A stretch of 64,000 nucleotides of DNA from Candidatus Saccharimonadota bacterium (GTDB lineage Bacteria; Patescibacteriota; Saccharimonadia; Saccharimonadales; Saccharimonadaceae): the NCBI GenBank assembly GCA_017531585.1, contig JAFXKT010000001.1, forward strand, positions 124,001 through 188,000, read 5' to 3'. Shown here one piece after another: positions 12,017 through 52,288 of this stretch. The position numbers and the translations under genes are program-made. The notes beneath the pieces were generated by a model, which saw nothing but the letters and a program-made list of their open reading frames with translations, did no database searches and was not told the DNA's origin. Position 1 is the stretch's first letter. Each line of letters opens with the position of its first letter.

Positions 12017-12044
12017 AAATCCCCAATGATTATTGGGGATTTTT
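12017..12044 (+). terminator. Terminator after tRNA-Leu
   Basis: An 11-bp stem AAATCCCCAAT/ATTGGGGATTT with a 4-base loop lies between the tRNA and the convergent pilin operon and is active in both directions. Confidence 0.9.
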
Positions 12045-12061
12045 GATAGTTATCCTAATGG

Positions 12062-13309
12062 TTAGTTCGTACCAGAGTCATCACACTTCGCTACGCCTTG
12101 AATACAGTTCTTTGTGACGTAGAAATTCTTCTTAATGCCGTCACTACCGCCAACGATAAGTTCTGCCGCAGGAAGTAGGTCAGCACCATTCTTCGTACCT
12201 AGGCGTGCCTCAACACGACGCATAAGGTCTCCAGCGCGGCCAGTAGCATCGACAATAGGCTGAATATTCCAGAATTTAATCTCTCCGTCATCACCGCGCA
12301 TCTCTACGGTAACGTCAAGGTCTGGATCAGAATAGATCTTGCTTAAGACCAAGAAGAAGTTCTGTGAATCACGCGGAAAACCGCCAGTAGGGGCCGGCAT
12401 CTTAATCTCTACTTCACAGTGAGAATCTTGACCCGTATAACAGTGAACTGGTATCGGTTGATTCATAGTTTTATCGGCAGATGCAACAACATCGGACGCA
12501 GCAATTGTATTATCGTAATTCGTCGTGCCATCTTCGTATGGAACCAATGTCAGATAACCCCTATCCGTATTCGTACCGTCAGAGGCATAATAATATGCAT
12601 CGGAATACTTTGATTTTTGAACCAACATTACGTTTAGAGCATTAAGATTAACCGCTGAATCATCATCTTTCATACCCTTTTTACCAAAGATACCTTCTGC
12701 TTTCTCAGTCAAGTTGTCTCCAGTAGCGTATCCATAACTATTAGGAATTTCGTTAGTGCTCGCACTACCAAAATTGCGCCAGACGATTCTAACGGCCTTA
12801 ATATCGTCAGCATCGCCATCAGCCTTCATGCTTTCTTTGCTTCTTAATGGCACAACAAGCGTAGGATCATCTTTTGTAATATAACCTTTAAAGTTGCCCT
12901 CAAGCGACATCGATACGCAAGTATAGGCCTGGTCAGTAATGTCTTTATCGATCGTATATTCGGAGGAGCCAGTACCACCTAACGCTTTACGAACTAAGTC
13001 ACAGTCGTTTTCGGGTTGATAGCCGTCAGGTTGACCTTTCGCTTCAAGAACGTCCTTAGCCTGTTTCGTCGCAGCACTATTATCTCCAGCCAAAGCTTTC
13101 TGATATAAGGAATATGCCGTTTTTGCATCCTCGATGCCAGCAAGAGCGGAGTTGTAGGCAGAATCAGAAAGAGTGTCTCTGGAAGTACGGCCAGATTCGG
13201 AAAGCATAATGCGCAAAAAGCTAAGCGTAATAATGCTAATTAACAAAGTCGTAAATACGACAATGTATATAGACGCCATACCTTGCTTAGTTTTGCTATT
13301 TTTCGACAT
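12062..13309 (-). CDS. PilX-like pilus accessory protein
   Basis: The 415-residue product begins with a short basic stretch, a glycine and a hydrophobic helix (about residues 11-35, KQGMASIYIVVFTTLLISII), followed by an amphipathic helix, as in minor pilins. The usual Glu at position +5 after the cleavage point is absent, as in several PilX/PilW-type proteins. The outer domain (residues about 45-415) has scattered cysteines, notably CYTGQDSHCEVE, and is not recognised. It is the last of four clustered prepilin-like genes transcribed together (gaps of 21 and 5 bases and one 13-base overlap). It probably belongs to the tip or priming complex of a type IV pilus. Confidence 0.7.
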   Translation of the reverse strand: MSKNSKTKQGMASIYIVVFTTLLISIITLSFLRIMLSESGRTSRDTLSDSAYNSALAGIEDAKTAYSLYQKALAGDNSAATKQAKDVLEAKGQPDGYQPENDCDLVRKALGGTGSSEYTIDKDITDQAYTCVSMSLEGNFKGYITKDDPTLVVPLRSKESMKADGDADDIKAVRIVWRNFGSASTNEIPNSYGYATGDNLTEKAEGIFGKKGMKDDDSAVNLNALNVMLVQKSKYSDAYYYASDGTNTDRGYLTLVPYEDGTTNYDNTIAASDVVASADKTMNQPIPVHCYTGQDSHCEVEIKMPAPTGGFPRDSQNFFLVLSKIYSDPDLDVTVEMRGDDGEIKFWNIQPIVDATGRAGDLMRRVEARLGTKNGADLLPAAELIVGGSDGIKKNFYVTKNCIQGVAKCDDSGTN

Positions 13310-13330: not shown

Positions 13331-14251
13331 TTATATACCAGCATTACCAGTTTGACGAACCGTTACTTCGAAGCGGTTTACCGCACAGTAACTCATGCCA
13401 ACATTAGCCATTTTTTCTTTAGCTTCTTTCGTAGCAACTTCGTCATCTGCATTTTCTTGAGCTTTCTGGCTGCAGTAGTTACTCGAACTCATGACGTTAA
13501 TACCACCGCGCATCGTACCAATCACGAAGCTAACATTGAACAAGGCTTGCCCCGTTAGACTATTTTTCGTTGCATGCATAACCGAAAAATCATAAAGTTC
13601 TAGATCAGAACCGTCATTACTATCATTACCATCAAGCAAGATCGTCAAATCCTTAGAATCAACTTGAATAATATGAGCATCTTTTACGTTTTTATACTTC
13701 TCATCATCTTTCCAGAAGAAGTCGGTCGTACTAGTACCATCCTTGTCGGCAGCTTTCGCAGAATTACATAAGGTTGCCGAAGGGTCTTTTACGCGAACTA
13801 ACCCATAAGGTTGCTGGATACTAGTATCGGTTTGAAGTATCGAAATGTAATCTTCAGTATCCGTGGTAACGGGCTGCTCACGGAATTTTAGCATTGCAGG
13901 CTGATAATTAAAGATATAGGTATAGCTGTTCGTACAGAATATGCCATAGCCTTTGTCGTTATAGGCATAATATTCTTTTTTTGCATCTTCAACTATATCC
14001 TTTGTGTAATACGTACCGCCATATTCTGGGTCGATAGAGTTACTCCACTTCGTAGAGGAAGTAATTGTTTGTTTTAGGTCGTCAGCAATATCTCCGCCAA
14101 TCGCATTTATGGAGCGCATAGCAACGCCCTTTGTATACATATTCACAAGTTGCATCGCTAGCATTGCGACAGAGAGAAGTAAGGTACCAATGAAGGCAAC
14201 CGCAAGCATTAATTCGATAAGAGTAAAAGCTTTCTTTTTGTTATTCTTCAT
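13331..14251 (-). CDS. Prepilin-like protein (PilW-type)
   Basis: The 306-residue product has a class III signal of the type IV pilin kind: basic start, then KKAFTLIELMLAVAFIG with the canonical Phe-Thr-Leu-Ile-Glu. Prepilin peptidase would cut after the small residue before Phe (here Ala instead of Gly) and the hydrophobic helix (about 8-30) would build the pilus core. The outer domain is unknown, rich in Asp and Ser, with a few cysteines. It is in an operon with two other prepilins upstream and a PilX-like gene downstream, which resembles minor-pilin clusters FimT-PilV-PilW-PilX. Confidence 0.82.
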   Translation of the reverse strand: MKNNKKKAFTLIELMLAVAFIGTLLLSVAMLAMQLVNMYTKGVAMRSINAIGGDIADDLKQTITSSTKWSNSIDPEYGGTYYTKDIVEDAKKEYYAYNDKGYGIFCTNSYTYIFNYQPAMLKFREQPVTTDTEDYISILQTDTSIQQPYGLVRVKDPSATLCNSAKAADKDGTSTTDFFWKDDEKYKNVKDAHIIQVDSKDLTILLDGNDSNDGSDLELYDFSVMHATKNSLTGQALFNVSFVIGTMRGGINVMSSSNYCSQKAQENADDEVATKEAKEKMANVGMSYCAVNRFEVTVRQTGNAGI

Positions 14252-14256
14252 ATCAA

Positions 14257-15186
14257 TTATTCTCCATACTCATAAAGACGGACTACTGTTGAAGTTGTCG
14301 ACGGAGCTTTAGCACCAACCGCATTCCAGCAAGTGCGAATATAAAAATCATAGCTAGTCTGATCAATATCAGAAGCAATATTGCGCTTCAAACCAAAAAC
14401 CCAAACGCCTTCGGAGCGTTGCAAAATATTAGACTGCAAATAAACAGTCGATTCTTCGGTGCCATCAGCATTCACAACACCGCTCTTGCCGCCATTGCCG
14501 GCTAGAATATCCATACCATAATCCGAGGCGACCATAGAACCATCTTCGGCCAACATAGTCTTGTAACTTAGTCTTGGGTATAGCGGTGTTGTAGTAATAT
14601 TCGAAGAAGGCGCACCTTCATAGCCTCCATTATCGAACACAACTACGTTATTGATCAAAGTACTTCTTAAAGCATCGGAGCCAAAACCATAGTAACCTTT
14701 AGTATGCCATTCGCTATTAGTCACAACAGAAGCAAGAGCGCGCGGATTCAAAACAAAAACTGGATACTTTTCGCGATCATTCTTAAGCGCTTCATCACAA
14801 GTAGCAGCTTCGTTAACATTACTTACTGAATCGCTCGCAACGGTATACATTGCTGGCAGAGCGCCCGCAGCGCCACTTCTTTTCGTATTCCAAACATCCC
14901 TAAAGAAATCACCTTCAGAAGAACGATCCCTCTTTAGGCCAGTAATATAAGCCTCGTATATATACCTTAAAGTGTCAGATTGTGAATCGATTGCAAGACG
15001 AGACATCGTGCTTTCAAGGTTTTTCTGAGCACGAGAAAGCCCACTGTTCATCATGCTAAGAGCAAGGACCGCGACAATAGAATAAATCGAAATAGCAATA
15101 ACAGCCTCAACAATAGTATCTCCATAGCGAGTCTTTTTGCTCGAGATATTACTATTATTTGCCTTTCGCTTTTTTAGTTGTTGCAT
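14257..15186 (-). CDS. Prepilin-like protein (PilV-type)
   Basis: This 309-residue protein has a pilin-type N-terminus after about 23 residues: YGDTIVEAVIAISIYSIVAV, where Gly-Asp is the expected cleavage point and Glu is at position +5. The helix spans about residues 24-48. The C-terminal domain has four cysteines and ends with a strand-rich segment. The ATG is inside the end of the previous prepilin gene (13-base overlap), so the two are coupled. Its position second in the cluster and the Val-Glu-Ala pattern fit PilV/GspI-type minor pilins. Confidence 0.8.
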   Translation of the reverse strand: MQQLKKRKANNSNISSKKTRYGDTIVEAVIAISIYSIVAVLALSMMNSGLSRAQKNLESTMSRLAIDSQSDTLRYIYEAYITGLKRDRSSEGDFFRDVWNTKRSGAAGALPAMYTVASDSVSNVNEAATCDEALKNDREKYPVFVLNPRALASVVTNSEWHTKGYYGFGSDALRSTLINNVVVFDNGGYEGAPSSNITTTPLYPRLSYKTMLAEDGSMVASDYGMDILAGNGGKSGVVNADGTEESTVYLQSNILQRSEGVWVFGLKRNIASDIDQTSYDFYIRTCWNAVGAKAPSTTSTVVRLYEYGE

Positions 15187-16115
15187 CTATTCTCCTCCGA
15201 ATCAGCCTCAATCAGGCGGACTGCGTTTTCGCCAGAAGCGTCACCATCAATTGTTACCATGCGCATACCACCAGAGCTACTCATACCATCACCCGGCTCG
15301 ATACAGAAAGAGACATCGCGATGTTTTAGTTTTGTCGCTTCTCCCGCTATGCCATCATCAAATTCGACAAGACTATCATTTGCATTAGTAGTAGAGGACT
15401 TACCAGCAATAGGATTAATAATACCATTCCCCGCATAACGAGCAAAACTTTCAATCGAACCGGTATTTGGAGAACGATAAACAATCATTTCTACGCCGAT
15501 ATTATCAGCAATATCATCCGTGCTCTTGCAAGAATCATATTTTCCCGAATCTACCATATCTTGGCTGCATAGCACATGAACCTTGGCACCCCAAAGAAGT
15601 TTTGATTTTACTTCGCCTTTTCTTTCCCATCTATAAGAAGGGCCAGCATCATAGGTAAAGAATTCGCTTACGCCAGCATGCTTTAAATAGAGCAAATCAT
15701 CATACGGACTACTATCAGTGCTTTTGAGATTTTCCTTCGTTTGAGCCTCATCAAAACCGCCCAGAAGAGACGACATGACATAGGATTCATTATTATTCGT
15801 ATAAATAGCTACGGCTAGACCATAAACAACACATCTACTTCTTCCGCGGGCACCGTTAACGTCGCTTATGTCAGAAGTCTTATTATTCCACCAACCACAT
15901 CTCGCCTGTTTGTTGCCATAGTCAGCAATCTCTATGTTTTCAGCACGAGAATACACATCACGCAAGCTATTCACAAAACTCTGGACCGTATCGCGATAAC
16001 GCTGGCTACGAAGACTGCCATTTGTACCAATAACTACGCCAGCAAAAACCAAGCCAGTGATTGCCAAAAATAGCATCGTCTCAATAATGGTAAAGCCAGA
16101 TTTTTGCTTAGACAT
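15174..16115 (-). CDS. Prepilin-like protein (FimT/GspH-type)
   Basis: The 313-residue product begins MSKQKSGFTIIETMLFLAIT, a textbook type IV prepilin cleavage site (Gly before Phe, Glu at +5), and the helix runs to about residue 31. The next part, with SLRSQRYRDTVQSFVNSLR, resembles the GspH/FimT start. The outer domain has about seven cysteines. It is the first gene of the four-prepilin cluster. A TATAAT-like element (near 16155) about 35 bases upstream of the ATG and a GGGTGCAAGG stretch suggest a leadered transcript starting after the giant secreted protein gene. Confidence 0.82.
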   Translation of the reverse strand: MSKQKSGFTIIETMLFLAITGLVFAGVVIGTNGSLRSQRYRDTVQSFVNSLRDVYSRAENIEIADYGNKQARCGWWNNKTSDISDVNGARGRSRCVVYGLAVAIYTNNNESYVMSSLLGGFDEAQTKENLKSTDSSPYDDLLYLKHAGVSEFFTYDAGPSYRWERKGEVKSKLLWGAKVHVLCSQDMVDSGKYDSCKSTDDIADNIGVEMIVYRSPNTGSIESFARYAGNGIINPIAGKSSTTNANDSLVEFDDGIAGEATKLKHRDVSFCIEPGDGMSSSGGMRMVTIDGDASGENAVRLIEADSEENRCNN

Positions 16116-16174: not shown

Positions 16175-19100
16175 TTAGTAACGTACGGCACGCTCTTTAA
16201 CGTACTGAATTTCGGTTTTAGATTCCTTCAAAGATTCTTTGTATGCCCATTGAACGCTTGAAGGATCGTAATTAAAGACTTCGCCACGGCGAATATTGCC
16301 ATTCGGATTACCGCCTTCCGACTCTGAACCATAAGTCCTATCCAGCTCAAGACTATCCGAGACAACAGCACCATTGATGATTAATTCATTATTGCAATCA
16401 TCTATAGTCAGGTCGCCAACGTCTTTTTCTGAGCAGGTATCAATATTGCCGTCAACCACTAACCATGCATCTATCTGCTTAACATTATTAGATATTTCGA
16501 TATCATCTGCAAAGATGATAATCTGGCGAGTCTTTGCGACGCCACTCTCTTTCTTAATGTCTTTGGTTAGCTTTAATGTTCCCTTATACGTAACCGCAAG
16601 AACATCGAAGCCGCCAGCGTTGTTCGTATATCCATTTATATAAGTCTCGAGATCTACCGCACTTGCGTTATCCCAAACCCTAAAGACACCGTTTTCGGTC
16701 CTGGAGCAGATCTTGCCATCCGCATCAGAAAGCATTCCTTCGCAGCTGTCTGATCTATACTTAGATAGATTATTTTTGAACTTAGCGATTTCATCAGAAA
16801 CCATAACGGATTCTGGCGTACCAGCCTTAGCGTTAGGATCTATATTACCAACACTTTCAATATCGTGACGTTTTACATTTGTAGTTTCGGATATCGGCAC
16901 GCCACCAGCACTATCTGTGCGGTTCGGCTCAAACTGTGGGCCAGCATAAGCCAAGGTTGCACCTGAAGCCATAGAAGAAGAACCCGCAATAATGCCATAT
17001 TCCGCCCAGCTACCAAATACATTACCATTTACAGGTGTTTTGGTTGTCTCGATATCACCCCTAACATGCAAGGCATTACCCTCCACGCTCATCGAAGGAT
17101 ATTTCGCAACCGTACGACAGCTTATAGAAACGCGCCAATAAGCACCGTCCCCAGCAGTGTCACCGCTTAGCGCGACACTCTGATTGGCATTCTTTTCAAT
17201 ATCGGTCGTTTCTGTATTGTGGCTATCGGCCGGATAGACAGCAACAGCCATGCAGTACTTTTGACCAATAGTATCTGCAAAGACCTTGTCTTTTGGCGTA
17301 TCTATAGTAGTACCAGAAGTGCCTATCGACTCATTCTTAACTTCATCATCAACATTCGGCACAGTGCTATGGTCAACTAGATCAGCAATTGTGGCATCCT
17401 GTCCTTTACCATGGACGTTAAACACTTTATATGTAGCCCCTGGTTCTCCCATAATATCTGCGATAGATTCATCAGGACCTACAGTAAAGACGTTAGCCTT
17501 AATAGTAGTAGTTTTTGTAGCCGTTTTATACTTGTCTTCCTGAACGTCTTTATTCTTTCTTCCCGACACCGCAATTTTTGCCTTGAAATTAATCGGCGTG
17601 CCTACAGTGACCGTAGTGAGATCCTGTCCCATACTACCCGTTGCCGGTTGCGGGTCAAGAATATAGTTATATGGCACATTTGTAGTTATTGAGTACACGT
17701 TACTAGAAACAGAACTTACGCCGTTTGTTTTAGCAATATAGCTCAAGTTACTCTTGCCTAGCAAAATATTAGATTTAAATGATTCAGTACTTTGCTTTAT
17801 AACGTAGCCATTATCAAGCCTACTTTTTATGCTGCCATCTTCAATTTCGTTTGCAAAGATATTTTTGTTTCCATCATCTTTTCTGCGGCCACTTGTTGGC
17901 TTACTACTAATCGCCGAGTCGCCATTATAGTAAGGGTCCTTACTAATCGACAATTTAGAAAGTTCCTCACTGTCAGTATTTAGCAAGAAGACATCATTTC
18001 CACTTCCACCATTAGCATCCTCGGCAATCTGAGCACCGAAGCAGGCTTCATAGTTCAGTGTCGCGTTATTATTATCACCCTTCAACCAAACAACATCGGT
18101 AGTTTTGTCGGAGCCATCGCCAACAATAGTACGACCTTTTGAAGAGTCAAGATAGAGACCCGCATAGTCATTTGCTGCACCCTCTACGCCTATGTAATAA
18201 GTAACGTCTTTGCCTTCTGGGCCAGTTAGCTTACACTCTGCATAATTAGCAACACCAGTTAGAGCTGCATGAGATTCCTTGTCGTTAAAGTTGCCATTGT
18301 ATGATTTACCGTCGCCATAAACCTCACTATCATGAAAAACATACTCTGAAACACTGTCGAGTTTTTGGCCTGGGAAGATGTTTCCGGTTTCAGAAATCTT
18401 GCCGTCTTTATACCTCGGTGGCAATGATGAATCCTTAAAGATACTCGAATCCCAGCTATTAATCGTACGCATAGAGTTTGGCGTAACGCTCTGGATTTGC
18501 TTATCTAGACCAGCAAGCGAACCGGTATCGGCAGGTCTGGCATGGAATTTTACTGGCGAATTATTGATGATGCTACCATAACCCGACCCAGATTCGAGTT
18601 TCGTATAGTATTGCTGTCCAGTAACTTTAAGAGTATGAGTCCAAGTAACGTTGAACTTATTAGAACCATACGCGATGCTTTTATTATATTCATCCGCATT
18701 TGGCTTCGCAGTCCCGAGATCCAAAACAGCATAAGAATCCCAGTCGGATTCAGCGCTTTTACCGGCGGCACTAATCTTAGTCTTGGACTGGATCTTTGAT
18801 ACGACTGGATCCCATTTAACTTTTATACAAGCTTTAGCTTCCGGATCAGAATCAGATACTTTTTTATTCTCCGTATCCGTAATTTTTACCGGATACTTAG
18901 TCGACGAACAGTAAGTGTACTCTTTATTTGGCTCCGAAAGAGTAATTTTCGTAGGCGAAGAAGCCGTGCCGCTAGTCGCAGATGCCGTAGCGGATTCAGC
19001 AGAATACGAAATTAGTGTACCGTCCCCACTCGGATAAGAACTATTCAAAGCACTTATTTTCGCATAGAAACTCATTGCATTGCTGCTGTCTTCCCTGGTA

Positions 19101-19954
19101 TATACATAAGACGACCAAAAATCTACTTTTGGCGAATTAACGATAATAAGTGGCGTCGAGCCAGAGCCGCTAGTATTAGAGCCCTCTCCGCCAGTGCCTT
19201 TTACATTGATTGTTACGGCAGCACTTTGCTCCGTACCTGGAGGCGGAAGCTGATCATAGGCACAGAAGGTCGTAACGCCCTTATCGCCATTCTTGGCGGC
19301 GCTGAGTTCATATTCCGATTCTCCCTGCCTTACTAGCGCTGCTTTCCAAGCAGCATTTGCTTCCGCATAAGTTACAATTCTACCAGTAGCAACACGATTG
19401 CTAACATAGTTATTATTAACATATGTCGGCCAAGTACCCCCTGTTATCGTAAATGCCGTATCATATGCATAGCTTAAAGACTTGCTCGTCGCGCCGACAT
19501 AATCGCTCGTACTTCCTCTGTGATACACGCCAAGCTGCTGCGTATTTCCATTGGCGCTATAAAAATCAGCGACAGCAGCATTCTTGCCCGTATCCCACGA
19601 AGGCCTTTTATATCCAACCGCGCCAGCACTATAGAACTTAGTTGAACCTTTAGCACAATCCGCCGGCACTGTAACACCCGGGGCCTTCAAACCGCTTCGG
19701 TTAAAGCCAGGCACACTAGCCTCTCCTTCGTAATTTGGATCATCGTATGTATACTCAAACCACGCGACTACCGTCGTCCAAAAATACGATACACCAACAT
19801 CTGTTGAGCCGTACCAGTTGCCACTATCGCCGCTACCAGAACCAGAGCCACTATCCGTCCAAATACCTCCAGCAAAAGCTTTTTCGCTAGACAAAACCGA
19901 CACAACAAGCAATAGCAAGACTGCTACTATTTTCGTAATATTACCTCGCCTCAT
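16175..19954 (-). CDS. Giant secreted protein, copy B (pilus-region adhesin candidate)
   Basis: This is a 1259-residue exported protein with a signal peptide (about residues 1-28, ending KAFAGG) and no C-terminal membrane segment. It is rich in Ser, Thr, Gly, Asp and Asn with few lysine clusters, as usual for surface beta-proteins. The C-terminal third pairs with the protein at 20704: GNVFGSWAEYGIIA, TLAYAGPQF, a run of short beta-strand units (IIIFADDIEIS, AWLVVDGNIDTC, LIINGAVVSDSLELDRTYG) and the ending FNYDPSSV...RAVRY. The first 14 bases overlap the small membrane protein gene upstream, so both are coupled. The family is not recognised. It lies directly before four prepilin genes, which suggests a pilus-linked tip or surface adhesin. 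Confidence 0.65.
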   Translation of the reverse strand: MRRGNITKIVAVLLLLVVSVLSSEKAFAGGIWTDSGSGSGSGDSGNWYGSTDVGVSYFWTTVVAWFEYTYDDPNYEGEASVPGFNRSGLKAPGVTVPADCAKGSTKFYSAGAVGYKRPSWDTGKNAAVADFYSANGNTQQLGVYHRGSTSDYVGATSKSLSYAYDTAFTITGGTWPTYVNNNYVSNRVATGRIVTYAEANAAWKAALVRQGESEYELSAAKNGDKGVTTFCAYDQLPPPGTEQSAAVTINVKGTGGEGSNTSGSGSTPLIIVNSPKVDFWSSYVYTREDSSNAMSFYAKISALNSSYPSGDGTLISYSAESATASATSGTASSPTKITLSEPNKEYTYCSSTKYPVKITDTENKKVSDSDPEAKACIKVKWDPVVSKIQSKTKISAAGKSAESDWDSYAVLDLGTAKPNADEYNKSIAYGSNKFNVTWTHTLKVTGQQYYTKLESGSGYGSIINNSPVKFHARPADTGSLAGLDKQIQSVTPNSMRTINSWDSSIFKDSSLPPRYKDGKISETGNIFPGQKLDSVSEYVFHDSEVYGDGKSYNGNFNDKESHAALTGVANYAECKLTGPEGKDVTYYIGVEGAANDYAGLYLDSSKGRTIVGDGSDKTTDVVWLKGDNNNATLNYEACFGAQIAEDANGGSGNDVFLLNTDSEELSKLSISKDPYYNGDSAISSKPTSGRRKDDGNKNIFANEIEDGSIKSRLDNGYVIKQSTESFKSNILLGKSNLSYIAKTNGVSSVSSNVYSITTNVPYNYILDPQPATGSMGQDLTTVTVGTPINFKAKIAVSGRKNKDVQEDKYKTATKTTTIKANVFTVGPDESIADIMGEPGATYKVFNVHGKGQDATIADLVDHSTVPNVDDEVKNESIGTSGTTIDTPKDKVFADTIGQKYCMAVAVYPADSHNTETTDIEKNANQSVALSGDTAGDGAYWRVSISCRTVAKYPSMSVEGNALHVRGDIETTKTPVNGNVFGSWAEYGIIAGSSSMASGATLAYAGPQFEPNRTDSAGGVPISETTNVKRHDIESVGNIDPNAKAGTPESVMVSDEIAKFKNNLSKYRSDSCEGMLSDADGKICSRTENGVFRVWDNASAVDLETYINGYTNNAGGFDVLAVTYKGTLKLTKDIKKESGVAKTRQIIIFADDIEISNNVKQIDAWLVVDGNIDTCSEKDVGDLTIDDCNNELIINGAVVSDSLELDRTYGSESEGGNPNGNIRRGEVFNYDPSSVQWAYKESLKESKTEIQYVKERAVRY

Positions 19955-20636
19955 CTGTCGTACACTCCGTTACGATATCTGGATTTTTACTAACCCATTC
20001 CTCGTCATTATTTCGATACATTAATTCGCTACACTTATACTCAATATCATTATCTTTGTACGTTAAACTATCTATTTGCTCCATAATACTCGCTATAGAT
20101 TCTTCATCATTCGTACATGTATATTTGAATGAGGCGTATTTCATCAAGATATAGTATTTCTCATAGTCATTCTTAGCATCGCTTAAGGACTGCTGAAACT
20201 TTTCTTCTATTTGATCGTATGCCTCATTTAGATTCTCTGCCCTAGTCTTTTCATCTACAAAAGAGCCAATCTCGCTAGCTTTATTCTTGGCTGCCGCGAT
20301 TTTTTCCTCGGTTGTTTGTTCTCGCGTGTTATTAAAGAAGATAAAAGCGCCAACGCCTAAGGCTATCAAAACTACAGCAGCACCAATGATAATTAGAGGC
20401 TTTTTGCTTCTTTTTTCGGCTTTTCTAAGCTCAATTACCTGCTCGATTTTTGCATCACGTGCGGCTTGTTGCTTTTTCTCGGCCTCTTTTTTCGCTCGCT
20501 CGGCGGCCGCTTTGCGTTCTTTTTCGCCAGCTATATTGGTAAATTGCTCAACTCTCTCTTTGTCGGCAATTTTCGCAGAATCAAAAGAGACGCGAGGCTC
20601 TCCTGATTGACCATTAACCTGATTATTTTCAGCCAT
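19941..20636 (-). CDS. Small membrane protein, copy B (partner of giant protein)
   Basis: This 231-residue protein has a long cytoplasmic N-terminal tail (about 1-88) with a conserved box VSFDSAKIADKERVEQFTNI followed by a Lys/Ala/Glu coiled-coil. One membrane segment (about 89-110) and an outer domain of about 120 residues with cysteines follow. It is a clear paralogue of the protein at 24458: same tail box, same coiled-coil and same membrane position. Its end overlaps the giant protein gene by 14 bases. A TGCTAAAAT extended -10 lies 9 bases before the ATG, so this gene starts the second copy of the module. The function is unknown; the arrangement suggests an assembly or anchoring partner. 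Confidence 0.7.
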   Translation of the reverse strand: MAENNQVNGQSGEPRVSFDSAKIADKERVEQFTNIAGEKERKAAAERAKKEAEKKQQAARDAKIEQVIELRKAEKRSKKPLIIIGAAVVLIALGVGAFIFFNNTREQTTEEKIAAAKNKASEIGSFVDEKTRAENLNEAYDQIEEKFQQSLSDAKNDYEKYYILMKYASFKYTCTNDEESIASIMEQIDSLTYKDNDIEYKCSELMYRNNDEEWVSKNPDIVTECTTDEAR

Positions 20637-20703
20637 ACTAATACTATTTTAGCATAAGCAAAATGAGCCAACGCATGATTGGCTCACTTTATTCGAGGCT
20701 AGA

Positions 20704-23700
20704 CTAGTAGCGAGATGGAAGTTCTTTAATATAAGTAGTCGTAATTGGGTCTTCCTCCATGGACTGCTTATAAACTTCCGAAACGTATGCTGGATCAAAG
20801 TTAAAGATTTCAGCGCGCTGAATTAAGCTTCGAGGCATTACACTATCCCCATAGCTACCCCCACCAAAGGTGCGATCAAGTGTAATGGTTTCTGCAAATA
20901 CTGCGCCATTTACAACAAGCTGCTTGTCACATAGATCTTTAAGACCAGAGTTGCCCTCGGTTCCACCTTGCGTAGTCTCGTTTTGCTTGTCTTCTAAGTA
21001 ACAGGTATCTAGATTGCCATCAGCAATAAGAATTGCATTTATCTCCGTAACATCTGGATGAATTTTGATATTATCCGCATAGATTATCGGGGTTGAGCCG
21101 TCAGCGTTTTTGTTAACATTACTATTAATAATCAGGGTTCCATTATGTTTAGTAGTGCCACTTTTACCAACAATTTGGTTTTTGACGCTATAAGCCCTGG
21201 AAGCATAGGAGTACGCTTCGCCCGAATCTAGGCCTACTTGGTTTCTACAGTTTATATTTCCAACCGTTTCAATGCCTATACATTTAGCATCCTTTTTTAG
21301 ACCAGCTTCAGATGAATCAGCCTGCTCATTAACGAAAAACTGTGGACCATGGTACGCAAGGCTCGCGCCAGTACCAAAGTTAACCGAAGTACTATTATCC
21401 GCAATTAGGCCATATTCAGACCAAGAACCAAAGATATTCCCGCCATAATTTGTGGTCGAAGTAATTACGCCACCACCAGATACAATACCAGAGCCTTCTA
21501 CACTTACAGTTGGCTTCTTGCCTAGCGTTCTACAGCTAATCTCGAAGCGCCAATATGCTCCAGAACCTGGGTTATCCCCCATCAAAGCGTTCGTCTGCGG
21601 ATCGCCAGATACGATTACGGAATCACCTGTATTATTCATATTGTTATGGCTATCTGCAGGCCAGACAGCAGCAACGGCACAGTATTTTGTACCTACACTA
21701 ACCGTAACGCCTTCACCGACCTTCGTAGTGGCAGTACCGTCCTTCTCTGTTGTTGACGAAACTACTGTACCATCAATCCTGTCGTTTAGAATACTTTCAA
21801 ATTCTTCATCGGATTGAATATAGAAATCTCTTGTTTCATTTCCAAAACTATCCTTCATACGAGTTGCACCGCTGGCAGATATATTATCCAGAAGATCTTT
21901 GAGGTTTTTACCCGCATCAAGAGTAAAGATAGCGGTATAATACTTGCTTGTTTTTGTAAGCGTAGGAACATCCGTAGCCGTAGCGCCCGTATCTTCGTTT
22001 ACTCGTCCGTTCACTTTTACGTTAGAGACTGCACTAATATCTTCGCCATAATAGATTGAGCTGCCATCAAACTGATCGAAACCCGGATCTATAATGTAGT
22101 TGTACGGAACCTTTGTCGTGATTGAGTACTTTTTTACGGTAGTATCATTATTGCTTGTCTGAAAGCTAATGCTATGCTCGATAGTTTGACCTAGCTGATA
22201 ACTTGCTTCCGTAGCAGCAACCGTATCCTGATCTTCAAGTTGATAACCAGCATCAACGCGAGCCTGAAGATATTTATTGTCTCCGATTTCATCAGCTCGA
22301 ATGTTTTTACCATCTGGACCAGATAGTTTGATACTAGATGCCGGAGTTCGTCCGTTAGAGTTCGTATTGTATAACCTTCCGTTAAGGCTATTGTTCAGAG
22401 GGTTCATCGAAATCTCGAATTTATCAAGATTAGTAACGCTTGCGCTCGTCCAATCCGTGACCGAAGAATTGCTATCTAACCAAGCTCTATCCTTCGCAAT
22501 CTGAGCACCGTCACAGATACTATAGCTAAACTTTTTAATCTTATCATTACCCTTCAACCAAACAGTTGAACTGCTAGGGTATGGATTGCCGCTATCATCG
22601 ACACCGTCACCTACAGTACGAGACTTATAAGATTCACTGATAGACATAGACATTTTGGCATAGTTGTCTGGATTGTTTACGCCAATATCTTTGCCGTTAA
22701 TAGCGCACTTTACAGTATCGGCAGTTAAGGTTACCTTTAGCGAGGACGATTCATTGCCCTCAGATGTTGCAGCCGAGTCGTTTTTGACCGTTTTAGGATG
22801 AGTAATACCTTTTAGCAGCTCTTTTCTATCCCCTGGAAGGAGCTTTACATTGTCCGTTTCGTAGAGGTTATCTACGTTAAAGTTATCTAGACCGCTGTTA
22901 TACGTGCCACTACTAAGCTCTTTCGACAAACCACTCGTCGCCCATGATTCGCCAAGTTTTGCGTACTTTACTCTAAATTTACCCATTAGAGGATTGAGAG
23001 CAACATGTTTACCGTCATCTTTTTCGACCCTCTTGATACCCAAAGAGTGTTTCCAGTTTACAGTAACATTCTTGCCATACGGAACATTCGCATCGATACC
23101 AGGATTGCCGGCATCGCCATTGTCTATGTCACTTACTCCAGATTTTGATCCTTCACTGACTACAGCACTAGTCTTAGAATTGATTTCGTTAGCGATTAGG
23201 GGGACATATTTTACCTTAGCACATGCTTTCAATTCTTGAGCACTACTATCGTTCTGTTTTTCTTTATAATCAAGCGCTATACAGATTGTATTATCTCCAC
23301 TTTCCAGCACAAAGCTAGGGCTCGTAGACGACGTAACGGTCGAACTAGTCGTTTTATCGATTGCCTGATCCTTGCTAGTCCAATTCGAGCCATCAAAGGC
23401 ATATTTAGTTGCACCGTTTAAGGTCATAATTGCAGAATAGTTGGTTTTTCCAGTCTTATCGTTAGCCTTACTAACCTGCATCAATAGATAGCCTGGCGTG
23501 TAGTTATAATCGTTAACTACGCCTAAATCTATAGTATTATCATTGTTGACTTTAGAGCCGTTTTTATATGTGCCTTGCTCTTTGCTTTCGCCATGTTTTT
23601 TGCTATTGAACGCATAATTTGATCCGTCACTGCCAATCTTAACCACGCCATCAAATGGAGATATGTCGGAGTAACAGAAAAGAACCGTAGCGTTACTCGA

Positions 23701-24480
23701 ATCATCATCACCATATTTTTTCTTATCATAGTCGCTTAAGAAATAGTCGCCGTAGTCTAATGTCTCAGGATTACTAGAATCAGCAAATTCATTAAGTTTG
23801 CTCTGAGCCTGAGCATCATCTATCATCCCAGCGCTTGTGTCCATTTTGGCCCAAACCTGTTTACTATCGCTCTTATACAATGTCTGTTCACCAAGTTTAA
23901 ACTCCTCATACCATTCCCCTACACTGTGGTCGGAATCATTATGGCCGACTTCATTAGCACTACTAATGTTATTGCTAGATCTACCTGTAAAGCCTACTGG
24001 CGCAACACCGTTCTGCGTTGCACCAAAAGTCAAGCCTTTATACTGCCTTTCCTGATAGATATTATCTTTCTTCTGAAAGTATCCTCTCCTCCAAAAACCA
24101 CCGTTCTCAACAATACAATCTGACATAGCCGGCTCTACCACAAGCCATCCATCCACACCACTATCAGCAATACCGTTACCACTGTTAGCTATACCAATCG
24201 GAGGTATATATTTTTTGCCATTTTCAGTAGGAAGATTGTCTGTATTTACCGTATAGTAAACCCACCTAGAAAACCTATAATCCGTTCCCGTGTCCGATTG
24301 ACATACATTGGACGAATTCGGAGCATAATCAATACTAGAACCATTACAGTTCTCTGAATTACCATCAGCATTCTGAGTTTCACCAAAAACTAACGACGAA
24401 CAGACAAGCACCCCAGCAAAAGATAACGCAAGGGCAACCGTCATCCTTATATTAGTTCTAGAGTTCACAATCTTTTGCAT
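20704..24480 (-). CDS. Giant secreted protein, copy A (paralogue of 16175)
   Basis: With the ATG at 24480 the product has 1258 residues. The longer frame would begin with an unlikely extension before the signal peptide MQKIVNSRTN...SLVFGE. Like its paralogue it is exported, Ser/Thr/Asn/Gly-rich and without a membrane anchor. Shared blocks include a CxGAQIA sequence with a preceding TVWLKG strand, TTKVPYNYIIDP, YCAVAAVWPADSHN, GAYWRFEISCRTLGKKP, GNIFGSWSEYGLIA and the ending FNFDPAYV...LPSRY. Nearly every block has a counterpart in the same order in copy B, so the two arose by tandem duplication and then diverged. It overlaps the upstream membrane protein gene by 23 bases. Confidence 0.65.
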   Translation of the reverse strand: MQKIVNSRTNIRMTVALALSFAGVLVCSSLVFGETQNADGNSENCNGSSIDYAPNSSNVCQSDTGTDYRFSRWVYYTVNTDNLPTENGKKYIPPIGIANSGNGIADSGVDGWLVVEPAMSDCIVENGGFWRRGYFQKKDNIYQERQYKGLTFGATQNGVAPVGFTGRSSNNISSANEVGHNDSDHSVGEWYEEFKLGEQTLYKSDSKQVWAKMDTSAGMIDDAQAQSKLNEFADSSNPETLDYGDYFLSDYDKKKYGDDDSSNATVLFCYSDISPFDGVVKIGSDGSNYAFNSKKHGESKEQGTYKNGSKVNNDNTIDLGVVNDYNYTPGYLLMQVSKANDKTGKTNYSAIMTLNGATKYAFDGSNWTSKDQAIDKTTSSTVTSSTSPSFVLESGDNTICIALDYKEKQNDSSAQELKACAKVKYVPLIANEINSKTSAVVSEGSKSGVSDIDNGDAGNPGIDANVPYGKNVTVNWKHSLGIKRVEKDDGKHVALNPLMGKFRVKYAKLGESWATSGLSKELSSGTYNSGLDNFNVDNLYETDNVKLLPGDRKELLKGITHPKTVKNDSAATSEGNESSSLKVTLTADTVKCAINGKDIGVNNPDNYAKMSMSISESYKSRTVGDGVDDSGNPYPSSSTVWLKGNDKIKKFSYSICDGAQIAKDRAWLDSNSSVTDWTSASVTNLDKFEISMNPLNNSLNGRLYNTNSNGRTPASSIKLSGPDGKNIRADEIGDNKYLQARVDAGYQLEDQDTVAATEASYQLGQTIEHSISFQTSNNDTTVKKYSITTKVPYNYIIDPGFDQFDGSSIYYGEDISAVSNVKVNGRVNEDTGATATDVPTLTKTSKYYTAIFTLDAGKNLKDLLDNISASGATRMKDSFGNETRDFYIQSDEEFESILNDRIDGTVVSSTTEKDGTATTKVGEGVTVSVGTKYCAVAAVWPADSHNNMNNTGDSVIVSGDPQTNALMGDNPGSGAYWRFEISCRTLGKKPTVSVEGSGIVSGGGVITSTTNYGGNIFGSWSEYGLIADNSTSVNFGTGASLAYHGPQFFVNEQADSSEAGLKKDAKCIGIETVGNINCRNQVGLDSGEAYSYASRAYSVKNQIVGKSGTTKHNGTLIINSNVNKNADGSTPIIYADNIKIHPDVTEINAILIADGNLDTCYLEDKQNETTQGGTEGNSGLKDLCDKQLVVNGAVFAETITLDRTFGGGSYGDSVMPRSLIQRAEIFNFDPAYVSEVYKQSMEEDPITTTYIKELPSRY

Positions 24481-25171
24481 ATTCCTCCCAGTTGTCCGAT
24501 TCATAATATAGATTACTATATACATCACAAAGCGTTTGTCTGTTCTGGTCGCTTAATTTTTCTGGAATATTTCTATCCAAAAACGCTTTTACTCTTCCAG
24601 CATCGCCGAACTCTGACATAACATATTCTTCATAGTTTTTTAGTAATTCGGTTTTTGCATCTTGATCGTTTTCATTTTCTATGTAATTTTCAATGTCATC
24701 AATAGAGCTGAAGCAAAAACCGTTTTCCTGTTTTTCGCTTTCGCAAGAGCTTTTAAATGCTTCCACTTTTTCGCTCGCTCGCTCTACGGCAGTTCTCCTG
24801 TCTTTCAAGAAATAGAATGCGACGATAACCAATAAGAGAGCAATAAGAATCACAGCGACAAACACCCACTTACGCCATCCGCCAAAGAAAAATTCTAGAA
24901 ACTTATTCTTTTTCTTGCCATCGTAATTCTTAGACTCTTTCTCTGCTTTCTTGAGTTTTTCGTCGAGCTTCTTTGAGTCTTCTACTTCTTTGGCTTTTTC
25001 TTTAATATCTTTTTCGTGCTTGGATTTTGCCGCTCTCTCTGCGGCTGCTTTCCTAGCTTCTTCGCCCTCGATTTTTGTGAAGAGTTCGCTTTTATCTTTA
25101 TCTTCAATCTCCGAGGAATCAAAAGAAATGTTTGTGTCTTTGACCTTATTCTCACCCTCTAATTCTGACAT
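24458..25171 (-). CDS. Small membrane protein, copy A (paralogue of 19941)
   Basis: The 237-residue protein has a charged cytoplasmic tail starting with the conserved box ISFDSSEIEDKDKSELFTKI and a Lys/Glu/Ala coiled-coil (about 40-85). One membrane segment (about 97-121, WVFVAVILIALLLVIVAF) and an outer domain with several cysteines follow. It is the paralogue of 19941. The ATG is preceded by TGCTAAAAT about 9 bases upstream. It overlaps the giant secreted protein gene by 23 bases. It is the first gene of the 13-kb pilus and adhesin region. Confidence 0.7.
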   Translation of the reverse strand: MSELEGENKVKDTNISFDSSEIEDKDKSELFTKIEGEEARKAAAERAAKSKHEKDIKEKAKEVEDSKKLDEKLKKAEKESKNYDGKKKNKFLEFFFGGWRKWVFVAVILIALLLVIVAFYFLKDRRTAVERASEKVEAFKSSCESEKQENGFCFSSIDDIENYIENENDQDAKTELLKNYEEYVMSEFGDAGRVKAFLDRNIPEKLSDQNRQTLCDVYSNLYYESDNWEEYAKDCEL

Positions 25172-25233
25172 CTTATATCAATTTTAGCATAAGCGCTACC
25201 ATTTATAAAGCCGAGAGCCGGCCTGACGGAACA

Positions 25234-41215: not shown

Positions 41216-41611
41216 ATGAAGAATAAGCGTGGCTTTACTGTTTTAGAAATTATTATTTGTATTGTAATTGCTGGCATTTTTGTAGTGCTATTTTTCCTAC
41301 AAAAGCAAGACGCCGCCAAGATGGACCGCGATAAACAGCGTAAAATCGCCATCAATGCAATCTATTACGCTCTCGAAGAAGGCTTTTACAAAGATAACGG
41401 CTATTATCCAGAATCTATCACGGCCGCCGAAGAACTTCCTTGGATTGACCCAAACCTCTTCACCGACCCGAACGGCATTAACCTCTGGGTAGAAGGTGGC
41501 GATTATAGCTACGAAGCCGAGAACTGCGACGAAGATAATCACTGCAAGAAATACAAGCTTCGCGCCGTAATGGAAAAAGAAGAAGATTACGTCAAAACCA
41601 ATCGCAACTAA
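41216..41611 (+). CDS. Type IV pseudopilin (GspG/PilA-like, short)
   Basis: The 131-residue protein begins MKNKRGFTVLEIIICIVIAG, a clear prepilin signal with Gly-Phe cleavage point and Glu at +5, and has a helix to about residue 28. It then has a short helical part and a small outer domain with DPNGINLWVEGGDY, which resembles the calcium-loop end of GspG-type pseudopilins, and one Cys pair (CDEDNHC). It stands alone, far from the four-prepilin cluster at 12062-16115, but 3.3 kb from the PilB-type ATPase. A TAAAAT box lies 9 bases before the ATG. Confidence 0.85.
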   Translation: MKNKRGFTVLEIIICIVIAGIFVVLFFLQKQDAAKMDRDKQRKIAINAIYYALEEGFYKDNGYYPESITAAEELPWIDPNLFTDPNGINLWVEGGDYSYEAENCDEDNHCKKYKLRAVMEKEEDYVKTNRN

Positions 41612-44864: not shown

Positions 44865-46475
44865 ATGGACGAAGGTGAGATACAGCGCAAGCGCAGGCAG
44901 AATGAAGAAGAAAATACTGAACGAAGATCGAGGATTCTTGGTCTTCCATATCTAGATACTCGTGATTTCGAAGAGACGACCCCATTAGTTCCTAACTTGC
45001 TCTCTAAAGAAGAGATGCATCAGGATCATATGGTTCCTTTGCGCGCAGGCGAGAACGGTAGCCCTTACCAGTTTTTGGTTACCAGCCAGACACCACGCAG
45101 CGCCATTAATCGTTTAGGCGACAGCTACAACGAGCAAGGCCAGCGCATCGAGTTCTATCTTATCTCTGAGTCTGCTTTTCGCGTCTTGATGCTTCGCTAT
45201 GACCCACCAGTACAGGTCACTTATGACGATATCGAAATCGCAAAAGAAGGCGACAGCGAAACAATCCAGCAGGTTTCCGAGCTTTTAAATACTGTCGCCA
45301 CAGATAAGGTTTTTGATTATCTTCTCGATCAGGCAGATAGGCTTGGCGCCAGCGATATCCACATCGAGAATATGCGCAAAGAGATTCGCATTCGTATGCG
45401 CGTCGACGGTATTTTGCACCCAGTCGCAGAGATTTCTCGCGATCGTTACCGCATTTTCATGGGCGAGCTTAGTAGTCGCGCCAATATCTCTACCGCAAGC
45501 AACAAGCCACAATCTGGCCACATGCAGAAAGATATTACAAGAAATGGCGCAACTCACCTTCTAAACCTTCGTGTCGAGATGGTTCCTACTATGTATGGCC
45601 AGGACGCCGTTCTCCGTCTTTTCAACTTCGACGAAAGCCTTTTGAATCTTGACCTTCTTGGTATCACCAAAGAAGAGCGTGCCGCTATTTCCGAGGTCGT
45701 TTCCCACCCACGCGGTTTGCTCTTGATGGTTGGTCCTACCGGTTCTGGTAAGTCTACAACGCTTTATTCTATCCTTAACGCGCTCAACACTACCGACCGC
45801 AAGATTATTACCCTTGAGGATCCGATCGAGTATGGCATTGGTGGTATTTCTCAGATTCCGATTGTTACAAATGACGGCGGCTCGTTTGCTGAAGGCCTTC
45901 GCTCCGTTCTCCGTCTCGACCCTGACGTAGTTATGGTTGGCGAGATTCGCGATGCCGACACTGCAAAGACCGCAATTCAGGCCTCTATCACTGGTCACTT
46001 AGTGCTTTCATCTTTCCACGCCAACTCTACTAGCGCAGCCTTTGCCCGCATGATTGATTTGATTGGCGTAAACCCTATCTTCTCGACTTCGGTTCGCCTC
46101 TTGATTGCACAGCGCCTCGTAAGGAAGCTCGATAGTCACAAGCAGGCTTACAAGCCAGACCAGACCACGATTAACTACATCAAAAGAGTTCTTGATGGCG
46201 TTCAGACTGATTACAATCTTGACGACATCACGCTCTACAAAGCTGTTCCAAATCAGGAACATCCATTTGGCTTCAATGGACGCACAGCTATCATGGAACA
46301 GATGGTTGTTTCTGAGCCAATTCAGGCCTTCCTACGTGGCGAAAAGGAGACATTCGACACTAAGGCCATCGAGAAAACCGCTCGCGCAAACGGCATGCTA
46401 ACCCTCGAACAAAAGGGCGTTTTGGCCGCGCTTCGTGGCGACACAACTATCGAAGAGGTCGGAAGAGTTATCTAA
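44865..46475 (+). CDS. pilB: Type IV pilus assembly ATPase (PilB/GspE family)
   Basis: PilB powers pilin polymerisation at the inner membrane. The 536-residue product has the N2-like domain start LGASDIHIENMRKEIRIRMR, Walker A GPTGSGKSTTLYS, the Asp box LEDPIEYGI, Walker B LDPDVVMVGEIRD and the His box TGHLVLSSFHANS. The full-length MshEN N-domain of longer PilB proteins is absent, with only about 130 residues before the catalytic part. The tetracysteine zinc site is also missing. A retraction role (PilT) is less likely because of the ASDIHIE pattern. No pilC, pilD or pilM homologue is adjacent. Confidence 0.92.
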   Translation: MDEGEIQRKRRQNEEENTERRSRILGLPYLDTRDFEETTPLVPNLLSKEEMHQDHMVPLRAGENGSPYQFLVTSQTPRSAINRLGDSYNEQGQRIEFYLISESAFRVLMLRYDPPVQVTYDDIEIAKEGDSETIQQVSELLNTVATDKVFDYLLDQADRLGASDIHIENMRKEIRIRMRVDGILHPVAEISRDRYRIFMGELSSRANISTASNKPQSGHMQKDITRNGATHLLNLRVEMVPTMYGQDAVLRLFNFDESLLNLDLLGITKEERAAISEVVSHPRGLLLMVGPTGSGKSTTLYSILNALNTTDRKIITLEDPIEYGIGGISQIPIVTNDGGSFAEGLRSVLRLDPDVVMVGEIRDADTAKTAIQASITGHLVLSSFHANSTSAAFARMIDLIGVNPIFSTSVRLLIAQRLVRKLDSHKQAYKPDQTTINYIKRVLDGVQTDYNLDDITLYKAVPNQEHPFGFNGRTAIMEQMVVSEPIQAFLRGEKETFDTKAIEKTARANGMLTLEQKGVLAALRGDTTIEEVGRVI

Positions 46476-51297: not shown

Positions 51298-52245
51298 TTA
51301 GACCATCACAATAATGCCGACAACGATCAGAATCGCCGACAGCATATATCTAAAAACAGCCTGCTTCGACATCTTTTTGATCCTGATGAGTCTTGGGAAC
51401 ATCTTTGAAATCGCGAAGGTAATAAAGAGCGACACAAACAGGCCAGAGGCGCGACCAACAGCGCTAAAGAGTGCAACTACTGGCGTCAAGATTAGGCCGA
51501 GTTTCGCCAAGGAATCGGCTATACCCCAGGTAATATTCTCTATCATCGCAAGACCATAGTTCATCTTCTTTTTCTTGCCATGAATAAACACCCTGCCAAG
51601 CGCACTGCGCCAACCTTCAAACAATACCGCGGCAACAATCATAGCAACCAAGCTACCAATCTGGAAGAAGAAGAAAGTTTGGCCAAACAAAACAAGGTTT
51701 GTTGTGCCGCCACGATTTAAGAAGTAGACATAGACAACATCAGAAAGCATCGAAAAGAAAACGGAGATTAGCGTGATTCCTGCCACTCTAAAATCTGGAG
51801 TATGCTTCTTCTTGCCATCACTCATTAGAGCCACAACACAGGCGCCAGCCATAATAAAGAGGAAGCCGAGCGACTGGCTAGAATTAATCTTTTCATTTAG
51901 CATCACAACGCCAAGACCAAGCGAAATCAGAGGCCCAACCTGGCTAAAGATCGTAATATCAACCGTATCGCCTTCTCTTAGGGCTTTCAGATAAAAGACA
52001 CTGCCAATGACATTTATGACGCCCGCTAGCATCAAGCCAAGAGCATCCATTGGAGTGACCATAAAGACAGAGCGGCCAAAAATCAGAAGGAGTACGATTA
52101 GCGAAATACAGAAAATTGGAATGCGCGACAAAATAAACGCGCCCGCCTTTTTGCGCTGAAATTCATTATCTACGACATGGTTTTCGACATAGCTACCAAT
52201 TCCGTAGAAGATAGCCGCCACAACTGGCAAAAGTACCCACAGCAT
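51298..52245 (-). CDS. EamA/DMT-family transporter
   Basis: This 315-residue membrane protein has about ten hydrophobic helices in two halves. The second half repeats the first, as in the drug/metabolite transporter superfamily (EamA). The helix GPLISLGLGVVMLNEKINSS is typical for the end of the first half. The substrate is unknown. TGCTAAAAT and the ATG 6 bases later form a leaderless extended -10 promoter (52252-52257 for the hexamer). It is a single gene. Confidence 0.8.
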   Translation of the reverse strand: MLWVLLPVVAAIFYGIGSYVENHVVDNEFQRKKAGAFILSRIPIFCISLIVLLLIFGRSVFMVTPMDALGLMLAGVINVIGSVFYLKALREGDTVDITIFSQVGPLISLGLGVVMLNEKINSSQSLGFLFIMAGACVVALMSDGKKKHTPDFRVAGITLISVFFSMLSDVVYVYFLNRGGTTNLVLFGQTFFFFQIGSLVAMIVAAVLFEGWRSALGRVFIHGKKKKMNYGLAMIENITWGIADSLAKLGLILTPVVALFSAVGRASGLFVSLFITFAISKMFPRLIRIKKMSKQAVFRYMLSAILIVVGIIVMV

Positions 52246-52288
52246 AAGAATATTTTAGCATAAGCGCTACCAGTTTTGCCAGGAAGGA

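Follow-up and report, generated by a model that had tools for sequence, protein, structure and literature searches.

What is the function of two tandem gene pairs, each encoding a small membrane protein (S) and a giant secreted protein (G), that lie next to a set of prepilin genes, and how closely are they tied to type IV pili (T4P)? We analyzed these pairs in a window of 64,000 nucleotides (the whole stretch of DNA under study) from a Saccharibacteria genome of 1.01 Mb that is 99.6% complete. A reading of this DNA made from its letters had proposed a dedicated surface or pilus-tip system in which the membrane protein is the partner of the giant. Our results showed that the S-G module is real and wider than this sequence-only reading held; it is most likely a T4P tip adhesin system, with a plausible case for more.

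Two S-G pairs and four minor pilin genes in the window

The genes S2, G2, S1, and G1 and then four prepilin-like genes run from 25171 to 12062 on the minus strand (Table 1). The sequence-only reading had spanned the two pairs only, and the operon extends to 12062. As it had described, the pairs lie head to tail, with all ORFs found in their expected places, and the overlaps of 14 and 23 bases are both present when G2 is taken from the ATG at 24480. This start codon has a good ribosome-binding site (GGGAGG) 5 nt before it; for the alternative, longer GTG ORF of G2, the overlap with S2 would be 71 nt. The four announced prepilin-like genes are also there: three carry the motif G/A-[FD]-T-[IL]-[IV]-E and the fourth is PilX/GspK-like.

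Table 1. Coordinates of the features discussed in the text (positions refer to the window unless another locus of its genome is named)
Feature	Position	Strand	Remarks
S2, small bitopic membrane protein, 237 aa	24458..25171	-	cytoplasmic SFDS box, TM ~103-121, ~115 aa outside
G2, secreted giant, 1258 aa	20704..24480	-	N-terminal signal peptide; 23-nt overlap with S2
C-terminal family domain of G2	20707..21777	-	profile match
S1, small bitopic membrane protein, 231 aa	19941..20636	-	predicted helical-hairpin (TPR-like) outer domain, residues ~129-225
G1, secreted giant, 1259 aa	16175..19954	-	N-terminal signal peptide; 14-nt overlap with S1
C-terminal family domain of G1	16178..17347	-	profile match
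FimU/GspH-position minor prepilin	15174..16115	-	GFTIIETMLFLA
PilV/GspI-position minor prepilin	14257..15186	-	GDTIVEAVIAIS
PilW/GspJ-position minor prepilin	13331..14251	-	AFTLIELMLAVA
PilX/GspK-like minor pilin	12062..13309	-	GMASIYIVVF, no Glu5
Terminator-like hairpin after the PilX-like gene	12017..12042	-	11-bp stem; consensus match only
GCTTATGCTAAAAT, extended -10-like element	25181..25194	-	just before S2
GCTTATGCTAAAAT	20646..20659	-	just before S1
GCTTATGCTAAAAT, third exact copy	52252..52265	-	just before gene 51298-52245
PilA-like pilins with FTIIEVVLVLAIAGLIFLMVFIALPALQRSQRN	L154 9892-11028, L155 8233-8748, L156 2204-2773, L157 8419-9746		

BLASTP of G1 against G2 gave 256 bits (E=1e-73, 29% over 961 columns), which rules out a chance likeness and, by this alignment, makes the two giants true paralogues. 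The aligned part spans from about residue 360 to the end, and since the first ~360 residues could not be aligned, the earlier description of giants alike over their whole length, right as to paralogy, was slightly too strong. S1 and S2 resemble each other at E=9e-7, with the cytoplasmic SFDS box at the center of the similarity. The conservation claimed for this box stands for S1 and S2, but the box is confined to the window's genus and a near relative, while the outward-facing TPR domain (see below) is shared more widely.

We compared the four genes with those of L009, a relative with the same S-G arrangement. dN/dS was 0.12 for both S1 and S2, 0.24 for G1, and 0.20 for G2, and no stops were found. 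All four genes are intact and under purifying selection; the possibility of pseudogenes was rejected on the absence of stops and the dN/dS of ~0.2 for the giants. Over much of the giants, dS in this comparison is ~0.1-0.25 (background about 0.15), and it rises to 0.6-0.87 at residues 561-840 of G1 and to 0.7-0.75 at residues 841-1120 of G2. These patches suggest imported segments, and gene conversion or recombination inside the giants may lie behind them.

In a maximum-likelihood tree of the family domain, G1 and G2 of the window species (together with 90%-identical relatives) are sisters with support of 100/99, and the two giants of G109, another species of the same genus, are mutual sisters (100/100). 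Tandem duplication therefore occurred at least twice independently within the genus. On the same tree, members linked to pilM cluster far more than do shuffled labels. G109 carries two S-G pairs and prepilins and gave no full-length PilM match, which is either a gap or a real loss.

The 14-mer GCTTATGCTAAAAT lies 5-10 nt upstream of the start codons of S1 and S2. It occurs in 64 kb as three exact copies and one with a mismatch, for a chance expectation of 0.13 (at most one mismatch), and was found again before S genes of the window's genus. It looks like the extended -10 element of a leaderless promoter and is probably a general leaderless promoter of the window's organism. As the same element precedes S1 and S2, each S-G pair seems to have its own promoter. 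At the other end, the hairpin that follows the PilX-like gene likely marks the end of the operon, judging from its match to the consensus.

A family of giants and its membrane partner

Used as a query against the same GTDB family, G1 found a match in 101 of 151 genomes, mostly over residues ~935-1259 only. Iterated profiles over the fetched loci defined the family by a C-terminal domain of ~350 residues with an ELPPRY-like end, conserved cysteines, and the blocks GSW-EY, iDAWL, NGPV, and PAE-FN. According to these profiles, what is conserved in the giants is these ~350 C-terminal residues and not the full length. No Pfam or NCBIfam model scored above its cut-off with this domain and no match was obtained among PDB sequences, in agreement with the earlier statement that no named family is known for this system. 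DUF7305 (PF23981) shows a weak likeness to distant members: of 20 distant C-terminal domains, 5 matched it below threshold (best E=2.3e-4); the first of them scored 20.8 bits against a curated cut-off of 27, and the window's genome had no match to this model even at E=1. The AlphaFold2 model of the domain, built from a 4-row alignment of window and L009 sequences, has a mean pLDDT of 36 and gives no usable fold to set against the beta-propeller of PilY1. A scan of IMG/VR retrieved no relatives of the family and a PHROGs search gave one weak match. In one class-level relative, the domain match (G243:C2:316066-316821) lies inside one uninterrupted reading frame of 25,343 residues.

The profile detected the family in 265 of 295 genomes of the GTDB family (198/206 of high quality) and in 106 of 117 genomes of the class (99/108 of high quality). 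In a phylum-wide draw, 128 of 380 genomes were positive (120/338 of high quality), often with only the domain core matched. When 14 apparently negative genomes were inspected for pilM, the contig was seen to stop inside a giant directly before pilM in G049, G044, G665, and G076, where the remaining giant ends in IELPPRF, EAPARY, EYQPRF, and ELPARY, respectively, each followed by the stop codon. G654, G663, and G042 have no full PilM, and other negatives, e.g., G142, G528, and G693, fall under neither case. Apparent absences of the family are thus partly assembly breaks. Such breaks within the giant just before pilM, in the assemblies of four relatives (contig starts in L182, L183, and L184, a contig end in L187), look as if strain variation or repeats were concentrated in the giant gene.

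Across the family, the giants measure ~560-1830 aa and their N-terminal part varies widely. Among 50 of them, VWA was recognized in 4, CBM60 in 1, and DUF11 in 1, and a MIDAS-like DxSxS follows soon after the signal peptide in three giants; no N-terminal domain was recognized in G1 or G2. A simple scan found an N-terminal hydrophobic segment in 81 of 88 giants. G was rejected as a pilin, as it has no prepilin motif. Two other large proteins were encountered in the window's genome. A 1019-residue ORF with a TTG start (window 60889-63948, minus strand) has a repeat-like, beta-rich sequence and no Pfam match, and a secreted giant of 2797 aa without the C-terminal family domain (L153 6637-15030, minus strand) lies downstream of a gene for a 247-aa single-TM protein (L153 15142-15885, minus strand).

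A partner was defined as a gene of 100-480 residues on the same strand, with a single TM, within -110..+130 nt of the giant. Such a gene is present just upstream of 68 of the 81 family genes whose upstream side was readable in the first loci studied, versus 11 of 78 other long genes of the same loci, and it mostly overlaps or abuts the giant. These figures bear out the membrane protein as the dedicated partner of the giant. At the 13 loci without a recognized partner, some of the absences come from gene-calling limits; outside the class, often no S partner was seen.

The S partners have one TM and an extramembrane part of ~115-170 aa. In 24-26 pilM-linked partners, the outer part forms one sequence family with a TPR-like pattern. 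TPR_2 of Pfam matched 16 of 52 partners, other TPR models match many, and a profile built from the 52 partners finds solved TPR structures, designed as well as natural, with E down to 7.7e-81. By these profile matches, the pilM-linked partners are outward-facing TPR proteins. S1 and S2 gave no direct TPR match in Pfam. HHalign of the pilM-linked against the window-genus partners gave 97%; as this was a one-to-one comparison, its E-value does not equal one from a database search. The AlphaFold2 model of S1 contains helical hairpins at residues 129-225 (pLDDT ~70-85); Foldseek with this model returned nothing at E<=0.001, and VIA-align gave Z up to 9.4 to helical-repeat proteins, a range common for helical models. 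The assignment of S1 and S2 as putative TPR proteins rests on the profile comparison and on this medium-confidence model.

Genes next to the S-G unit

Most family members lie directly upstream of pilM-pilN-pilO-pilB-pilT-pilC. pilM occurs within three genes after the giant in 46 of 81 cases, pilM or a prepilin/PilX-like gene follows in 60, and prepilins or PilX-like genes follow in only about 14; as these counts come from related genomes, they are not independent events. The order S-G-pilM-pilN-pilO is found in other families of the order (L133, L134, L136, and L135, the last with a transposase-like insertion) and elsewhere in the class (L138; L139 is similar). In other classes, G-pilM occurs with S in L145 and mostly without a recognized S in L166, L167, L168, L171, and L172. 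The S-G unit precedes minor-pilin genes in the window and in further loci of the genus or family (L061, L062, L065, L071, and L149), abuts a lone PilX-like gene in L045, L051, L054, L055, and L150, and stands alone, with no pilin or pilM nearby, in L063, L064, L066, L067, and L148. In the pilM locus of L042, L044, L072, and L073, two giants in tandem follow one small protein; in three of these, both giants are short (about 353-361 and 563-568 aa).

In the window's genome, pilM-N-O-P-B comes directly after ychF and S-G is absent from the interval (L152), so that S-G goes with the minor pilins here and not with pilM. Lying beside minor pilins makes the window's genus an exception. The suggested test of whether the pair and the prepilin cluster always occur together fails on the counts given above, and the cluster was rejected as an obligatory partner. 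Of the surface or pilus-tip system first proposed, the pilus link was retained, and it is stronger and far wider than the prepilin association on which it was based; the usual companion is the T4P assembly operon, not the prepilin cluster.

Other pilus genes are dispersed in this genome. Apart from the pilM locus, pilT-pilC-pilA-pilA-pilD are grouped together (L154), and six PilA-like pilins with nearly identical N-termini (FTIIEVVLVLAIAGLIFLMVFIALPALQRSQRN) are scattered over the genome, two of them adjoining pilC. The window itself contains a separate PilB-like ATPase (44865-46475, plus strand) and an orphan prepilin (41216-41611, plus strand), with no second pilM-N-O set nearby. One full PilM was found in the window's genome; most of the other family genomes inspected have two.

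Proposed role of S-G and comparison with known systems

We lean toward S-G being a T4P tip/priming module of Patescibacteria, composed of a PilY1-like adhesin and a TPR membrane partner. G, which has an ordinary signal peptide and lacks a prepilin site, would be a soluble adhesin exported by Sec. Its C-terminal domain would dock on the pilus, where the simplest docking site would be the PilX-like minor pilin topping a FimU-PilV-PilW-PilX stack, and its variable N-terminal part, sometimes VWA/MIDAS or carbohydrate-binding, would bind the host bacterium or another surface. S would be co-translated with G, its one TM helix serving as anchor and its TPR-like domain lying outside. It may catch and hold (or fold) G at the membrane near the PilM-N-O platform until G is built into a new pilus; as a receptor or assembly factor bound to the membrane, it would pass G on to the pilus under assembly. 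In the window's genus, the tandem-duplicated S-G unit beside the minor pilins could provide two alternative tips. In short, the S-G gene pair of these small parasitic bacteria travels with their pili across much of the group and probably makes a sticky tip for recognizing host bacteria. A further-reaching proposal, which we put forward tentatively and find somewhat short of probable, makes S-G an overlooked T4P component that evolved separately to replace PilY1 and has a TPR assembly factor of its own. Under this proposal, the component, which occurs in almost all Saccharimonadia and can be traced into other classes of the phylum, would be the chief variable element deciding which host an epibiont can grip.

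Among the points against the tip, most genomes have S-G by pilM and not by the minor pilins, a location that suits an envelope role too. G could be a short-range host binder at the cell surface, off the pilus, with S as its permanent anchor and the T4P linkage reflecting co-regulation (the pilus tethers, S-G locks). S is indeed an integral membrane protein, S-G pairing is strict in the five loci that lack a nearby pilin or pilM, and essential non-pilus envelope adhesins are reported, in the available part of the study, for Southlakia epibionticum (PMC10633639). We nevertheless regard such a surface adhesin as unlikely, given that the T4P assembly operon is the dominant neighbor in the class and beyond. 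Outside the class, pilM linkage is often kept with no partner seen (L166-L168 and L172), which means that anchoring by S is not invariant.

The position of S-G directly upstream of pilM-N-O would also fit an envelope part of the pilus machine, such as a wall or S-layer collar or an exit port replacing secretin and pilotin, in which G is structural. TPR pilotins such as PilF/PilW offer an analogy, and PilQ was not found in CPR genomes according to the accessible part of a protein-family study (PMC6744442). This idea seems to us less likely again, as S begins in the cytoplasm and carries a TM, with no lipobox in all but two partners, and as G is highly variable in length and N-terminus, carries VWA or CBM in some cases, and is tandemly duplicated, traits of G that are more in keeping with a binding tip than with a fixed pore. 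Finally, G might be cargo secreted and released by the pilus machine, like a T2SS substrate, with S as the membrane docking factor. The ordinary signal peptide, the lack of an anchor in G itself, the adjoining minor pilins in GspH-I-J-K order, and the description of PilY1 as an analogue of T2SS substrates (PMC7541494) are consistent with this, but the giants contain no recognized enzymatic domain and the N-terminal domains seen are all of adhesion type, which makes released cargo very improbable.

Patescibacteria live attached to other microbes, and T4P genes are among their few known essential host-related genes. For the tip that recognizes the host, a direct candidate is a secreted protein that is almost universal yet variable and comes with a dedicated membrane partner next to pilM. 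If S-G is that tip, it fills a part missing from the published Patescibacteria pilus parts lists, as far as their available portions go, and represents a T4P tip protein whose C-terminal module differs from that of PilY1. Host specificity then becomes testable, because G can be deleted or tagged in genetically tractable Saccharibacteria.

The T4P loci of Nanosynbacter lyticus TM7x (PMC12206443) and Southlakia (PMC10633639) are from the same class and, in the parts of these papers at hand, locus one is pilM-N-O-B-T-C, accompanied by minor pilins and by PilX with large C-terminal domains proposed as adhesins. In the same parts, the TM7x study names 24 T4P genes, with PilX1 and PilX2 as candidate adhesins, and Tn-seq of Southlakia epibionticum finds the T4P loci essential. 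Neither account, within these limits, names an S- or G-type gene; PilX2 is a pilin with an RCC1 propeller, and this proposed pilin is the only T4P tip adhesin encountered in the accessible Patescibacteria literature. According to the consulted portion of the CPR study, PilA, B/T, C, D, M, N, and O are widespread in CPR and PilQ is lacking; a PilY1-like or TPR component beside pilM is not named there (PMC6744442). More generally, the sections seen of published Patescibacteria T4P accounts do not mention a giant with a TPR partner, although supplementary tables may hold such an annotation. A literature search for locus tags flanking the TM7x and Southlakia T4P loci returned none.

TPR proteins serve as secretin pilotins (PilF/PilW). 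Like PilF/PilW/Tgl, S would be an extracytoplasmic TPR protein tied to T4P; unlike them, it has a TM anchor and an N-terminal cytoplasmic part, and a lipobox-like motif is present in only 2 partners, neither of which is S1 or S2. Pilotins also partner a secretin, whereas CPR genomes are reported, in the excerpted text, to be without PilQ (PMC6744442).

The closest comparison is with PilY1, a soluble, Sec-exported protein with a type I signal peptide, a variable N-terminus, vWFA in a third of published cases, and a conserved C-terminus; it is encoded in an operon with fimU-pilV-pilW-pilX and sits at the pilus tip with FimU-PilV-PilW-PilX (PMC7541494, PMC13190605). The giants likewise combine a Sec-type signal peptide with a variable N-terminus and a conserved C-terminus. 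PF05567 (T4P_PilY1) gave no match for G1 or G2 at E<=1 and none among 50 giants at E<=0.01. A canonical PilY1 in these genomes was rejected on 0 matches to PF05567 in 101 related genomes, the positive-control genomes giving no match either. The PilY1-type calcium motif DxDxDGxxD occurs in 2 of 88 giants, neither of them G1 or G2. With no PF05567 and so few calcium motifs, homology to PilY1 is not supported, and the C-terminal module of G is most likely a non-PilY1 one. The layout fits while the domain and the calcium motif do not, so the likeness of G to PilY1 that we propose is one of function. G resembles PilY1/PilC1 in its type I signal peptide, its size of ~600-1800 residues, the VWA in some N-termini, the conserved C-terminal part, and the multiple copies with different N-termini. 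The FimU-PilV-PilW-PilX-like minor-pilin operon is a further likeness, and coding beside these genes is found in the window and several related loci, elsewhere mostly giving way to pilM. G differs from PilY1 in having a dedicated TPR membrane partner and in its usual site, upstream of pilM and not in the minor-pilin operon.
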